From a bacterium (GTDB taxonomy: Bacteria; JAHJDO01): DNA of 5,290 nucleotides. The DNA lies in NCBI GenBank assembly GCA_030652805.1, contig JAUSPT010000061.1, positions 1-5,290 on the forward strand, written 5' to 3'. Made by a program: the position numbers and the translations under genes. The notes under the pieces were generated by a model. It was given only the letters and a program-made list of their open reading frames with translations, did no database searches and had not been told where the DNA came from. Within the stretch, counting starts at the first letter, position 1. Each line of letters starts with the position of its first letter. Positions 170 through 5,151 of the stretch are shown here, piece by piece.

Positions 170-176
170 TTACGTT

Positions 177-1013
177 TTGAATAATGATACACCACCAAAG
201 GGATATGATCCAAAATTAAGTCCTAAAGAACTCCAAACCCAAATATCATCCCTGGGAATTAAAAAGGCAAATACAAAAATCTGGCAGCTATTTCTTCTGG
301 GAATTCTGGCAGGACTATATATCAGCATAGGAGGACATGCATTTCTTGTTGCACTTGAGCAAGGGATGGGGAAAATTGTTGCAGGTGCTGTTTTTAGTGT
401 CGGACTGGTATTAGTTGTTATTGCAGGAGCTGAGCTGTTTACTGGAAACATAATGATGATAGTAGGAGCCATATCAACATTCTTCCCAATTCGAAAAATG
501 TTGAAAAATTGGACAGTTGTTTATTTAGGCAATTTTGTTGGCGCTTTTTTATTTGCATTTCTTATCTTTAAATCAGGTCTTCTTGGTACACACTTAGACA
601 TCAACAAGTTGGGACAATTAGCAATAAAAATATCCGATAATAAACTGGATTTATCGTTTACAGAATGTTTTATTAGAGGGATATTCTGTAACATGCTGGT
701 TATTCTTGCCATTATTATGGCATATTTCTCAAAAGATATTATTTCTAAAATATTCTGCTGTATATTGCCAATTATGGTGTTTGTGGCCTCAGGATTCGAG
801 CACTGTGTTGCAAATATGTACCTAATCCCAATAGGCCTTTTTGTAAAAGGCGTCCCTTTTTACAAGCAATACATAATATTCCAAAATCTTATACCTGTAA
901 CGCTAGGGAATATAGCAGGCGGATTGTTTATCCTAATTATACATCCAAATAGAATAAGACAGCTTATTACATTGTTTTCTCACAAGCCTTCTTCACGCAC
1001 TAATACTAAATGA
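177..1013 (+). CDS. Formate/nitrite transporter (FNT) family channel
   Basis: This 278-residue membrane protein belongs to the FocA/NirC family, pentameric channels that move formate or related small anions across the cytoplasmic membrane. The first FNT signature is visible as VIAGAELFTG (residues 81-90). A version of the second is GIFCNMLVILA (168-178), followed by GFEHCVANMY (206-215), whose His209 matches the conserved pore histidine of the family. About six hydrophobic segments can be seen (near 37-60, 66-90, 112-133, 165-184, 190-206 and 234-256), with a soluble N-terminal stretch of about 35 residues. The start is TTG at 177, chosen for its well-spaced AAAAGGAG. Length is typical of the family. 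The 3' end overlaps hydE tail to tail by 34 nt. Substrate cannot be decided from sequence; the hydrogenase neighbours favour formate over nitrite by inference only, so no FocA/NirC symbol is given. Confidence 0.92.
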   Translation: MNNDTPPKGYDPKLSPKELQTQISSLGIKKANTKIWQLFLLGILAGLYISIGGHAFLVALEQGMGKIVAGAVFSVGLVLVVIAGAELFTGNIMMIVGAISTFFPIRKMLKNWTVVYLGNFVGAFLFAFLIFKSGLLGTHLDINKLGQLAIKISDNKLDLSFTECFIRGIFCNMLVILAIIMAYFSKDIISKIFCCILPIMVFVASGFEHCVANMYLIPIGLFVKGVPFYKQYIIFQNLIPVTLGNIAGGLFILIIHPNRIRQLITLFSHKPSSRTNTK

Positions 1014-2017
1014 TTTGGTATTAGAGAATGCCCATGGTCTTGCGCGATCTTTCTGCCAATTTTCTTTACTCTATTTTCCATACAGTATCTGCAGGTTATA
1101 GGGTCTTCTCCTATGCACGGTTTATCAGGATAAAGCCTATAATTTTGTTTGTATCTCTGCGGTGTAATGTTCGGCATCACCACATTAGCCCCGGACTGTA
1201 GTATTATTTCCCTGGCATCAGAACGCAATACATCCATAGCTGTAGTAGCAGGCAGGAGAACCTTTGGACAGAGGATTCTAACCAATGCAATGAATTTTTG
1301 CACAATCGAAAAATCTCCATTTTTACTGCCAGAGAGAGGTGTGTCGTTATTCGAAATATAAGGTCCTGCGCCTACCATGTGAAAGTTCCATTTTTTTATA
1401 AACAGGATATCATCTGCTATATGTTCTATTGTTTGTCCCGGCAGGCCTATCATAGAACCGCTGCCAACCTGATATCCAAGCTCAAACAACCATTGGAGGC
1501 ATTTTAATCTTTCATGGTAATTGTCGTCAGGATGCAGTTTCATGAACAGGTTTTCATTACTTGTCTCAAATCTTAACAGATATCTGTCTGCGCCTGCATC
1601 TTTGAATGCCTTATACTCATCAAAACTTCTCTCACCGATGCTTAGAGTTACAGCCAGATCAGTATGCGTTTTGATGTCTTCTACTAATTTGGCTAATACC
1701 TTTTTTGTAAACCATATATCTTCGCCTGACTGGAGAACGATTGTTTTAAGACCATGCTTATCTATCAGGACGGCTGTCCGGAGAATTTCTTCAGGAGACA
1801 TCCTGTAACGAGGAATCTTTTTATTTGATTTGCGAAGACCGCAGTAAAGACAATCTTTTCTGCAAAAATTTGAAAATTCGCATATGCCTCTTAGATGAAC
1901 CTCATCGCCGACATTTTCTTTTCTTATACAGTCAGCTTGCTTAACAGTATCTAAGAAATCGTCTCTCTTTAATATCTCAATTATGTCACGTTTAGAAATA
2001 TATGTCTCTTTCTCCAT
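980..2017 (-). CDS. hydE: [FeFe]-hydrogenase H-cluster radical SAM maturase HydE
   Basis: This cytoplasmic radical SAM enzyme acts on the organometallic iron product of HydG during assembly of the H-cluster 2Fe unit. Using ATG at 2017 gives 345 residues, close to the roughly 350 usual for HydE. The radical SAM motif CRKDCLYC supplies Cys52, Cys56 and Cys59. The family-typical LSIGERSFDEY and GADRYLLRFETSN follow in mid-protein. A C-terminal CX7CX2C (CIGEDPITCRYC; Cys301, 309, 312) matches the accessory cluster site seen in some HydE proteins. A TTG at 2023 is also in frame, but only the ATG has a purine-rich GAGAGAG at a usable distance (6 nt). The gene overlaps the hydG end by 26 nt, implying translational coupling, and is last in the operon. 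Its stop at 980-982 lies inside the convergent FNT gene. Confidence 0.95.
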   Translation of the reverse strand: MEKETYISKRDIIEILKRDDFLDTVKQADCIRKENVGDEVHLRGICEFSNFCRKDCLYCGLRKSNKKIPRYRMSPEEILRTAVLIDKHGLKTIVLQSGEDIWFTKKVLAKLVEDIKTHTDLAVTLSIGERSFDEYKAFKDAGADRYLLRFETSNENLFMKLHPDDNYHERLKCLQWLFELGYQVGSGSMIGLPGQTIEHIADDILFIKKWNFHMVGAGPYISNNDTPLSGSKNGDFSIVQKFIALVRILCPKVLLPATTAMDVLRSDAREIILQSGANVVMPNITPQRYKQNYRLYPDKPCIGEDPITCRYCMENRVKKIGRKIAQDHGHSLIPNHLVLVREEGL

Positions 2018-3488
2018 TCTCAACTCTCTCGTAGTCTTTCATAAGTTTTGCATAAAATTCAGGCATGAGTTTTTTAATTTCTTCAATTTCCTTGTTTATA
2101 ATTTTTTCTCCTGCAATATTTGTTTCTTTACTGCCAAAATCATCCAGCCACTCTCTGAAAGTAAGAATCGCGTTCAATTTGCAGAACTTCCCTTCCTTAC
2201 CTGTTTTTAAAAGGTTCATAATGCACTTGCCTGTTCTGCCGCAGCGATATCCTGCAGTGCAAAACGAAGTAATATATCCCATTTCCGCAAATTCTCTTAT
2301 TACCTCATCAAGACTGCGTGTATCTCCCAATAAGAATTGCTGACGTTCCTTTTCCTGCTTGGTATATCTGTCACTGTAAGCCCCAATCCCTATGCGTGTT
2401 GATGCATCCGTTTGCGTACACCCTAACGAAAAAGTCTCTCTTCGCATTTGAGCACTCTCTCTTGCAGTAATAATCATCCCTGTATACGGCACTGCCAAAC
2501 GTATCACTGTTACCAGCTTCTTGAAATCGTTATCACTTACCTTATGCTTTGGATCCTGTGTAATCGGAGAATTTGACGCAGGTTCAAGACGCGGAAAAGA
2601 AATAGTGTGAGGACCTATGCCAAATTTTCTTTCTAATTCCCTTGCATGGTATAGAAGTCCCATAACCTCAAATTTCCAGTCATACAAGCCAAATAAAGCA
2701 CCTATTCCAACATCGTCAATTCTTGCTTCCATTGACCTGTGCATGCAGTACAATCTCCATCTATAATCTGATTTTATCGTGCCTTTTGGATGAACTTCCT
2801 GATAGGTTTTATGATGATAGGTTTCCTGAAATACCTGAAACGTTCCTATTCCAACTTCCTTTAGTTTCTTCAAATCCTCTATTGACAACGGAGCAGCGTT
2901 CACATTAACTCTGCGGATGCTTCCATATCCGTTTTTCGTTTTTACTTTAACATCGTATATCTGTTTTATACTGGAAGTCATGTAATCTATATTTGCAACA
3001 GGATGCTCGCCATAAACAACTATCAGCCGCTTATGCCCGATTTTACCTGCTAAAACCTCCGTTTCTTTCTTTACTTCTTCCAATGTAAGCACTCTTCTTT
3101 TCTCATCCTTATTCTCTTTTCTGAATCCACAATAGAGACAGCTGTTCACACACAAGTTTCCAAGATAAAGAGGAGCAAATGTTACAATCCTGTTGTCATA
3201 AACCTTTTTCTTAATCTTAGTCGCTGTACTTGCCATTTCCTCCAGAGTATCTTTGTCATCCACATTGAGTAATACAGCTGTTTCCTCTGGCGTAAGCGTT
3301 TCAACAGCCATTGATTTGTCAAGAATGTCTCTTATCTTTTTTTTGTCAACGCATTTATTATTTTCTAATTTCTCTGTGATCTCTTCATCATTTATAAAGT
3401 CTTTGTCTCCATCCATATATTTTGTAATCTCGTTTCTTTTAATCCTGTTATCTATCCACGATTTTGTATCAATTATTTTCGCACACAT
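1992..3488 (-). CDS. hydG: [FeFe]-hydrogenase H-cluster radical SAM maturase HydG (tyrosine lyase), variant C-terminal cluster motif
   Basis: HydG cleaves tyrosine with SAM to p-cresol and a fragment that becomes CO and cyanide bound to iron, giving the Fe(CO)2(CN) building block. The protein has 498 residues, somewhat longer than the roughly 470-480 typical. The radical SAM cysteines are 113, 117 and 120 (CVNSCLYCGFR). Strong family signatures follow: DDVGIGALFGLYDWKFEV near 258-275 and GPHTISFPRLEPA near 292-304. The C-terminal auxiliary cluster motif is unusual. Published HydG proteins use CX2CX22C; here it reads CTAGYRCGRTGKC, so Cys410 and Cys436 are in place but position 413 is Gly, with extra cysteines at 416 and 422. 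AAAGGAG at 3505-3499 precedes the ATG by 10 nt. The gene overlaps hydF by 16 nt and hydE by 26 nt. Identity is secure; catalytic equivalence at the auxiliary cluster is not. Confidence 0.94.
   Translation of the reverse strand: MCAKIIDTKSWIDNRIKRNEITKYMDGDKDFINDEEITEKLENNKCVDKKKIRDILDKSMAVETLTPEETAVLLNVDDKDTLEEMASTATKIKKKVYDNRIVTFAPLYLGNLCVNSCLYCGFRKENKDEKRRVLTLEEVKKETEVLAGKIGHKRLIVVYGEHPVANIDYMTSSIKQIYDVKVKTKNGYGSIRRVNVNAAPLSIEDLKKLKEVGIGTFQVFQETYHHKTYQEVHPKGTIKSDYRWRLYCMHRSMEARIDDVGIGALFGLYDWKFEVMGLLYHARELERKFGIGPHTISFPRLEPASNSPITQDPKHKVSDNDFKKLVTVIRLAVPYTGMIITARESAQMRRETFSLGCTQTDASTRIGIGAYSDRYTKQEKERQQFLLGDTRSLDEVIREFAEMGYITSFCTAGYRCGRTGKCIMNLLKTGKEGKFCKLNAILTFREWLDDFGSKETNIAGEKIINKEIEEIKKLMPEFYAKLMKDYERVENGERDIYF
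2024..2030 (-). promoter_or_regulatory. Ribosome binding site for hydE, inside the hydG coding end
   Basis: GAGAGAG lies 6 nt before the ATG at 2017 and within the last codons of hydG. It directly abuts the alternative TTG at 2023, leaving no room to serve that codon, so it favours the ATG. It is a weak match to the Shine-Dalgarno consensus. Confidence 0.5.
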
Positions 3489-4738
3489 TTTTCATCAGCT
3501 CCTTTAGCTTTTTTAAATACATCCATAGCAGCGGGAAATGGAGAAAGCACTCTTTCCAACACTCCGTGCAGGAAAGAAATACACACGCCGTAATTTGTTA
3601 TAGGAACGCCTTCCTGTTTAGCCCGCTGAATTCTAAACAGCATTTCTCTTCTGTTGATCATACATCCACCGCAATGAATAATTAGTTTATAGTCCTTTAA
3701 GTTTTCGGGATAATCATGTCCTGAATATGTATCTATATTTAATTTTTTCCCTGTATATTCTTTCAGCCATCGCGGAATTTTTACTCTTCCAATGTCATCC
3801 TCCACCGGATGATGACTGCACGCCTCAGCAATGAGAACCTTATCTCCTGAAACCAGTTTATCTATTTCGCACACACCTTTCACTACCTCTATTAAATCTC
3901 CTTTGTATCTGGCAAAAAGGATTGAAAATGTTGTGCATTTAACATGTTTTGGAGTATCAGCCACCATTCTTGAAACGACCTGAGAATCACATACTGAAAC
4001 GTCAGGCGGTCTCTTTAGATTGTCCAGTATATGAGCGTATTCACTCTCCTTAACAATCAATGCGGCAGAGTCATTATCTAAAGCATCTCGTATTGTCTGG
4101 ACCTGCGGTAGAATAATTCTTCCCTTTGGAGCTTCCATATCAATAGGAACAATTAATACTGCCAGTCCTCCTGAAGGAATAATATCTCCTATGATAGTAG
4201 GCGGATTCAGGAAATCATCTGGACAGATTTCTGTAAGATGCTTTTTTAAGTCATTCACATACATATCTCTATTGTTAAAATCCATACTGGCGCAAAGAAT
4301 AATCCTCTCTGTCTTAGCTTTTAGTTTTTTTGCAAACTCAAGGGAAGGTGATTTCTGATCAATCTTATTCACAACGATAATGAAAGGCGTATTTCTATTT
4401 TCCGTTTCACGCAAAATAGCATCTTCGTATTTTCCCCATATATCTGCTTCAGTCAGAAGTAAAATAATATCTGCTCTGTCAAATATGTTCTTTGTTTTTT
4501 TGATTCTTAACTCTGAAATGGACGATGTGTCATCTATTCCCGCTGTATCCAGAAACACAACCGGACCAAGGGGCAAAAACTCCATGCTTTTTTCAACCAC
4601 GTCACTGGTTGTACCCGGAACAGGCGAAGTTATTGCTATGTCCTGATTGGCAACCAGATTCAGAAAGCTGGATTTACCAACATTAGTTCTTCCAAATAAT
4701 CCTATATGAAGCCGCAATGATTTAGGCGCTTTTTTCAT
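3473..4738 (-). CDS. hydF: [FeFe]-hydrogenase H-cluster maturation GTPase HydF
   Basis: HydF is the scaffold that receives the products of HydE and HydG and transfers the 2Fe subcluster to the hydrogenase. The protein has 421 residues. The N-terminal GTPase domain is complete: P-loop GRTNVGKS (16-23), switch I PGTTSD (41-46), DTAG (64-67), NKID (124-127) and CAS (149-151). The C-terminal metal-binding domain has CSH (Cys307, His309) and HCGGC (His355, Cys356, Cys359), matching the CXH...HCXXC cluster motif of HydF with 45 residues between the two histidines. All expected ligands are present, so it looks functional. The ATG at 4738 overlaps the preceding stop codon as ATGA, so it is probably translated by coupling; its own binding site (AAAGG about 10 nt upstream) is only moderate. 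Confidence 0.96.
   Translation of the reverse strand: MKKAPKSLRLHIGLFGRTNVGKSSFLNLVANQDIAITSPVPGTTSDVVEKSMEFLPLGPVVFLDTAGIDDTSSISELRIKKTKNIFDRADIILLLTEADIWGKYEDAILRETENRNTPFIIVVNKIDQKSPSLEFAKKLKAKTERIILCASMDFNNRDMYVNDLKKHLTEICPDDFLNPPTIIGDIIPSGGLAVLIVPIDMEAPKGRIILPQVQTIRDALDNDSAALIVKESEYAHILDNLKRPPDVSVCDSQVVSRMVADTPKHVKCTTFSILFARYKGDLIEVVKGVCEIDKLVSGDKVLIAEACSHHPVEDDIGRVKIPRWLKEYTGKKLNIDTYSGHDYPENLKDYKLIIHCGGCMINRREMLFRIQRAKQEGVPITNYGVCISFLHGVLERVLSPFPAAMDVFKKAKGADEKCVRK
3499..3505 (-). promoter_or_regulatory. Ribosome binding site for hydG, inside the hydF coding end
   Basis: AAAGGAG lies 10 nt before the ATG at 3488. It sits in the final codons of hydF, as expected for a tightly packed operon. 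The spacing is slightly long. Confidence 0.65.
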
Positions 4739-4992
4739 CTGCTTTTTACCTTTCCCAGTGCTGATTTTACTGATACGCCCTCAATAGCGCCCAGCTTTCC
4801 TGTTAAAGATCCAAGCTCATCTGTAGTAGCATCTACTACAAGCGTGATAACACAGCAATTCTTCTCTTTATAAGGAATACCAACGCGCGCTGCAATAATA
4901 TCTCCGTATTCTGAAAGCAAACTGTTAATTCTTGAAGAAGCCTTTTTTCTATCCTCAATTATGATTCCAACAAAACCCAGTCTTTTATCCAT
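4735..4992 (-). CDS. TM1266-like iron-only hydrogenase system putative regulator (ACT-fold)
   Basis: This 85-residue protein matches the small family named after Thermotoga maritima TM1266 and annotated as a putative iron-only hydrogenase system regulator. It is known mainly from its association with HydE/F/G. Hallmarks are an opening beta strand LGFVGIIIEDR, then YGDIIAARVGIPY, a second strand pair CCVITLVVDATTDELGSLTGKLG, and the ending GVSVKSAL. The alternation of strands and helices fits a ferredoxin-like ACT domain. No DNA-binding domain is visible, so a transcription-factor role is only an annotation habit. ATG at 4992 is preferred because GGAGG lies 5 nt upstream; ATGs at 4995 and 5004 are too close to it or overlap it. 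First gene of the hyd operon, joined to hydF by an ATGA overlap and preceded by a terminator-containing leader. Confidence 0.9.
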   Translation of the reverse strand: MDKRLGFVGIIIEDRKKASSRINSLLSEYGDIIAARVGIPYKEKNCCVITLVVDATTDELGSLTGKLGAIEGVSVKSALGKVKSR

Positions 4993-4997
4993 CATAT

Positions 4998-5002
4998 CCT
5001 CC
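4998..5002 (-). promoter_or_regulatory. Ribosome binding site for the TM1266-like gene
   Basis: GGAGG lies 5 nt before the ATG at 4992 and decides among three closely spaced in-frame ATG codons (5004, 4995, 4992). It follows the T-rich tail of the leader terminator directly. Confidence 0.75.
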
Positions 5003-5009
5003 ATTAAAT

Positions 5010-5045
5010 AAAAATTCCCGATCTCTATCCTGCAAAGAGACCGGG
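5010..5045 (-). terminator. Intrinsic terminator in the hyd operon leader
   Basis: In the - strand RNA, CCCGGUCUCU (5045-5036) pairs with AGAGAUCGGG (5026-5017) as a 10-bp stem containing one G-U pair. The loop is 9 nt. The tail is AAUUUUU, ending at 5010, with a further AUUU after it. It lies only 7 nt upstream of the first ribosome binding site of the operon, so it can only make sense as a conditional terminator. Confidence 0.72.
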
Positions 5046-5094
5046 AAAACACCATCAGCCCCTTGGTTTCAGGAAGAAACCCCTCCCCGCAGGA
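5017..5094 (-). ncRNA. Structured leader RNA of the hyd operon (candidate attenuator or riboswitch)
   Basis: On the - strand, TCCTGC (5094-5089) pairs with GCAGGA (5033-5028), closing a 67-nt domain. Just inside, GGGA (5087-5084) can pair with TCCC (5046-5043), extended by G-U pairs. A perfect 6-bp hairpin GGTTTC/GAAACC occupies 5081-5065 with a 5-nt loop; with that hairpin formed, only one of the G-U pairs remains possible. The remaining segment, about 5064-5047, includes GGGGCTGATGGTG and is largely unpaired. The inner stem needs 5043-5046, while the terminator uses 5036-5045 as its 5' arm and holds 5033-5028 in its loop. The two folds thus compete, which is the classic arrangement of a transcription-attenuating leader. 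I do not recognise a named riboswitch class; similarity to the fluoride class is limited to a short CTGATGG and lacks the upstream half of that motif. Confidence 0.5.
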
Positions 5095-5151
5095 AATAAG
5101 TTTTAATATACTAACATAATAATATCATTTATTACTCTAAGAAACCACCAA
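5095..5151 (-). promoter_or_regulatory. Probable promoter region of the hyd operon (elements not resolved)
   Basis: This AT-rich stretch lies between the structured leader and the IS end, the only native space left for a promoter. On the - strand a TATATT hexamer is a possible -10 box, but no good -35 box lies 16-18 nt upstream. TTAGAG with TATGTT at 16-nt spacing is a weaker alternative. No operator for a known redox regulator was seen. Transcription entering from the IS is a second possibility. Confidence 0.3.

Follow-up and report, generated by a model that had tools for sequence, protein, structure and literature searches.

A conserved hairpin, the hyd-leader motif, in a probable transcription attenuator upstream of an [FeFe]-hydrogenase maturation operon

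The leader RNA of an [FeFe]-hydrogenase maturation operon carries a small hairpin, a divergent copy of one that recurs, with the covariation expected of a conserved RNA structure, upstream of hydrogenase maturation genes in many unrelated anaerobes. We named this apparently undescribed cis-regulatory RNA family, which is dedicated to [FeFe]-hydrogenase maturation, the hyd-leader motif. It is probable (roughly 0.7) that the leader analysed here is a transcription attenuator controlled by this motif; the effector, for which the protein TM1266 is our preferred candidate, was weighed separately. To our knowledge, the regulation of [FeFe]-hydrogenase assembly in bacteria and the role of TM1266 are open questions. 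Both could be approached through a definite molecule that is easy to test, since the leader RNA precedes TM1266 and maturase genes across a broad phylogenetic range that includes Thermotoga. If the proposal is true, this RNA represents either a new orphan riboswitch or a new attenuation-protein system.

The window, i.e. the whole stretch of 5,290 nucleotides that was analysed, is the entire contig C61 of genome G000, which belongs to a phylum represented by five genomes of one genus. Its minus strand encodes a TM1266-family putative hydrogenase-system regulator (4735-4992; TIGR03959, 108 bits against a cut-off of 60.8; Pfam TM1266-like and NikR_C), followed by hydF (3473-4738; TIGR03918, 532 bits), hydG (1992-3488; TIGR03955, 476 bits) and hydE (980-2005; TIGR03956, 364 bits). 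The Pfam domains of TM1266 and its solved relative (PDB 2nzc) point to a NikR-C-like regulatory fold without a DNA-binding domain. A gene for an FNT-family formate/nitrite transporter (174-1013, plus strand) converges with the maturation operon and adjoins a tRNA-Asn gene (87-159). The identities of all five protein genes are firm.

The Shine-Dalgarno sequence of TM1266, GGAGG, lies at 4998-5002 (minus strand). An extended -10 promoter element, TGATATTAT, was predicted at 5119-5127 (minus strand) by consensus match only; it reads TGRTAYYAT in four congeners, and when the four genomes are aligned it stands out as conserved from a spacer that has otherwise diverged. Transcription would be expected to start at about 5112. 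An identical 26-base sequence, TGTTACCTATGTGCCCAGCCAGCACA, was observed at both contig ends (1-26, plus strand; 5178-5153, minus strand). Both copies are apparently IS481-like ends; the right-hand one lies where an IS481-like transposase gene ends, which places an IS copy immediately upstream of the leader and operon promoter in G000. The IS copy is absent in three congeners, and the leader is kept there.

The motif was recognised in TM1266 upstream regions of unrelated families by the recurrent element CUGAG-AUG-A-AGG...CCUGA-CAUC-GAGGAG. Its common core is a hairpin of about 38 nt with the layout P0-[GA/RA]-P1-[R/GA]-P2 and the consensus YYCU-[GA][AC]-GRUG-R-[AG]GG-loop-YCU-GA-CAYC-RA-GG[AG]RR. 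A covariance model, R1, was built from nine seed sequences, two of them from Thermotogota, with the window lineage left out. Among these seeds, two-sided changes occurred at 8 of 13 pairs, and the score was 0.423, compared with 0.10-0.20 for slid controls. R1 matched 50 of 64 Thermotogota TM1266 upstream regions (25-47 bits, E 1e-4 to 2e-11), and the covariation in these matches was far above that of shuffled and slid controls. In 98 distinct sequences, 90.8% of the cells pair and 158 two-sided changes were counted, versus 51 in shuffles and 9-55 in slid controls; the covariation was confirmed on a 100-sequence alignment, in which C4, U5, G8, C39 and G50 are invariant. P0 contains a C-G pair in 98/98 sequences and a U.G wobble in 95/98, and covariation at the outer P0 pairs involves C-G, U-A and A-U. 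A tandem purine mismatch makes up internal loop 1, in which a 5' GC co-occurs with a 3' AA, and the second pair of P1 covaries between A-U and G-C.

When the window and family members were scanned against Rfam 15, no accepted family and no riboswitch class was returned, only chance-level matches and a sub-threshold resemblance to PyrR; the sequence-only reading had likewise recognised no known class in the window. No description of the motif was found in the open-access papers that were searched, and subscription papers could contain one. In 385 genomes, weak R1 matches that scored less than about 30 bits fell mostly inside coding sequence and were discarded, as were two matches without a hydrogenase gene (L315, L327).

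When a refined model, R2, was run on whole genomes, second copies on which it had not been trained were detected directly before hydF, hydG, hydE and hydA (gene identities by NCBIfam). Because of these extra copies, the motif marks a regulon rather than one gene. In one Thermotogota genome, a copy precedes genes for an NMT1-like substrate-binding protein and an ABC permease (L289:501-2345), and the substrate of this transporter could hint at the effector. At four loci (L294, L301, L305, L288), hydF has its own motif copy and is followed by a gene that by eye looks aspartase-like. Five TM1266 leaders (L039, L038, L112, L113, L109) have terminators before the RBS and no motif called by the models; one of them, L039 (CUGAGUUGAAAGGG..CCCGACUGCAAAGG), resembles a divergent motif copy.

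In the window, the best match of each model lies at 5095-5058 (minus strand), with 15.1, 14.4 and 16.1 bits and E values of 0.0064, 0.0046 and 0.0061 (filters off) for R1, R2 and R3, respectively; the next-best window matches reached 8-9 bits. All three models were built without window-lineage sequences. R3 was built on the subgroup with the GC/AA form of loop 1, which was picked after the window had been seen, though from independent sequences. The P0 helix is formed by U5094CCU5091 and G5062GGG5059, in which U5091.G5062, C5092-G5061 and C5093-G5060 agree with the P0 pattern of the family. Internal loop 1, G5090 C5089 opposite A5064 A5063, fits [GA][AC] opposite RA, and the same GC/AA combination occurs in members such as L128, L129 and L320. 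The core of P1 (G5088 G5087 with C5066 C5065) has two standard pairs of about four, plus two G.A oppositions. Beyond internal loop 2, P2 (A5084GG5082 with C5073CU5071) gives AGG...CCU-GA, as in [AG]GG...YCU followed by GA. The L320 leader, found in another family and located before hydG, has CUGAAACCAAGGG and the GC/AA loop in common with the window; its CCUGCGGUGAGGAGCAACUCUGAAACCAAGGGUG is strikingly like the window's CCUGCGGGGAGGGGUUUCUUCCUGAAACCAAGGGGC. The three congeners with TM1266 have a match at the same place. Within the window's own genus, the model search detected no further copies before hydA. A search for a DNA pattern in GTDB genomes returned only two congeners and one unrelated chance match and was set aside.

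This hairpin is smaller than, and different from, the 67-nt sensor domain proposed in the sequence-only reading, and it is one copy of a wider RNA family. The inner hairpin drawn at 5081-5065 in that reading did not survive the comparison with relatives: it needs G5080, a position at which the three congeners all have U, so that the pairing with the invariant C5066 is lost. The conservation and covariation in relatives that the reading called for were found in the family, on the hairpin redrawn at 5095-5058. The link to H-cluster assembly that it suggested is plausible; the leader lies directly upstream of the maturation set TM1266-hydF-hydG-hydE, in keeping with the gene context of the family.

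Downstream of the hairpin, an intrinsic terminator (5006-5047, minus strand; 5' arm 5047-5036, 3' arm 5026-5015, T-tract 5014-5006) is located directly before the RBS. It had been noticed earlier as a 10-bp stem; the actual stem has 12 bp, with an energy of about -18 kcal/mol. When the leader was shuffled 1000 times with dinucleotides preserved, only 4 shuffles produced a perfect stem of 12 bp with a comparable U-rich tail. On the minus strand of the window, it is the sole such stem of at least 9 bp. Variants in the congeners preserve the pairing, e.g. U-A to U-G. A competing antiterminator (5035-5064, minus strand) can form through 9 bp between A5064AGGGGCUG5056 and C5043GGUCUCUU5035, which is mutually exclusive with both P0 and the terminator. 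This pairing is invariant in four congeners except for a one-base deletion in G003; the duplex alone is no better than shuffles (21/100). The attenuator geometry described earlier, a terminator before the RBS with competing pairings, was borne out. As for the outer stem of that description, UCCUGC (5094-5089) with GCAGGA (5033-5028), the pairing itself stands, being invariant in four congeners, and is predicted to close the nascent antiterminator fold (5028-5094, minus strand) instead of a stable sensor domain.

The leader is also unusually conserved. In each of the three congeners, 41 of 43 positions are identical (first 45 alignment columns), compared with 63-82% identity at the fourfold-degenerate sites of hydF and TM1266. 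This slower evolution than that of synonymous sites indicates that the window leader is under selection. Covariation within the window lineage is limited to one-sided changes in the congener comparison. Compared with shuffles, the overall fold had just a mild advantage (z of -1.31, and of -0.8 to -1.6 for the nascent RNA), so folding energy alone would not support an attenuator; the comparative data do.

Could the family be real elsewhere and the window leader be an ordinary terminator-bearing leader that matches it by accident? The window score of 14-16 bits, compared with 24-54 bits for most family members, the missing outer P0 pair, the weakened P1 and an antiterminator that is not significant alone all speak for such an accident. 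However, three models that had never seen the window lineage placed their top match at the right position and on the right strand, and in 79 kb of mostly TM1266-related loci the only R3 matches with E<=1 were the four window-lineage leaders. The conservation far above synonymous sites, the terminator before the RBS and the GC/AA loop pairing common to another subgroup argue in the same direction, and we regard an accidental match as unlikely. Far less probable still is a role of this conserved stretch as DNA, namely as the operator of a repressor, and not as an RNA element. Near-identity of the sequence within the genus would suit an operator, but the helix covaries across families, and the motif lies downstream of the predicted promoter, overlapping terminators and RBSs.

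Across 104 distinct leaders, 69 have a downstream terminator, with whose 5' arm the 3' strand of P0 can usually pair, 14 have a P0 3' strand that is itself the Shine-Dalgarno sequence, and 21 passed neither simple test. Complementarity suited to an antiterminator beat all 100 shuffles in 52 of the 104 leaders (mean -18.1 versus -10.1 kcal/mol), and Thermotogota leaders often show 12-16 bases of complementarity between the hairpin's 3' strand and the 5' arm of the terminator. With either platform, terminator or Shine-Dalgarno overlap, a folded hairpin implies OFF. At L290, L291, L292 and L293, a short reading frame that starts with ATG or GTG stands between the GGAGG of the motif and hydG, and some of these loci also have a hairpin and T-tract; this arrangement is possibly translation-coupled attenuation.

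From these arrangements we infer the direction of control, the default state and the place of an effector. By default, the 3' strand of the hairpin (AAGGGGCUG) would pair with the 5' arm of the terminator, aided by UCCUGC/GCAGGA, and polymerase would read through into TM1266-hydF-hydG-hydE. An effector would stabilise the P0/P1/P2 hairpin with its two conserved internal loops and thus withhold the 3' strand; the terminator would then form before the RBS, and the operon would be OFF. In other species, where the P0 strand is the Shine-Dalgarno sequence itself, folding would give a translational OFF state. By nearest-neighbour estimates, the forms of the switch are nearly isoenergetic when the whole terminator arm is present, and in the nascent RNA the antiterminator has an advantage of about 9-12 kcal/mol, which on these estimates would suit a default-ON switch.

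Two kinds of effector can be considered. The first is the TM1266 protein, either by itself or together with a ligand; it may repress the operon that encodes it, as an attenuation protein of the PyrR kind. We hold this at a little under an even chance and prefer it slightly, since the motif turned up only alongside TM1266. In Thermotogota, the motif was present in 64 of 67 genomes with TM1266 and in 0 of 36 without it (the latter taken irrespective of hydF), an association that is partly circular since the seeds were collected upstream of TM1266 and the genomes are related. Among hydF-containing genomes outside the training set, it was present in 8 of 24 with TM1266 and in 0 of 50 without; 16 of 32 genomes with both genes had no recognised motif. 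The congener G004 keeps hydF and lacks both TM1266 and the leader, which were lost together at this locus (L139, G004:C113). Sequence conservation of TM1266 showed no clean split between motif-bearing and other genomes. The co-occurrence and the regulatory fold of TM1266 suggest that this protein might act through the hyd-leader RNA much as PyrR does on its own targets. Metal, SAM, redox or formate had been proposed earlier as inputs, and a protein effector is at least as likely as these.

The other candidate is a small-molecule riboswitch, in which the internal loops would bind a metabolite or ion of H-cluster assembly for end-product repression, and TM1266 would merely be a frequent target. 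The hairpin is compact, its loop nucleotides are highly conserved across many families, two kinds of expression platform are used, as in riboswitches, and the targets include hydE, hydF, hydG, hydA and one NMT1-like ABC transporter. That no motif was found in the 50 hydF-containing genomes without TM1266 is, however, unexpected for a free-standing sensor, and we place this possibility, the main rival, somewhat short of even odds. A narrower version, in which a class of RNA sensors dedicated to the H-cluster would bind one of its assembly intermediates or the precursor of one directly (e.g. a HydG or HydE product), in bacteria from Thermotoga to several other groups, seems quite improbable to us.

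PyrR attenuators combine an anti-antiterminator hairpin, a competing antiterminator and a terminator; the regulator gene stands first in the operon, and copies precede other genes of the pathway. The hyd-leader resembles them (RF00515) in the hairpin/antiterminator/terminator layout, in the regulator-like gene at the first position and in the recurrent copies, but the best PyrR score in the family was 27.8 bits (L208) against a cut-off of 54, with none on the window. The contexts also differ, hydrogenase maturation here versus pyrimidine synthesis, and the role of the protein is putative in the present case. Small riboswitches of the NMT1/xanthine class are hairpins whose conserved paired internal loops lead to RBS sequestration or termination. 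The hyd-leader likewise has a hairpin with conserved internal loops feeding one or the other output, but unlike that class (PMC7373994) it matches no Rfam riboswitch and has a different gene context. Compared with the molybdenum-cofactor RNA motif (PMC2408646), it also has no Rfam match, is much smaller and differs in sequence; the two are alike as leader RNAs that govern, or in our case would govern, the assembly pathway of a metal cofactor.
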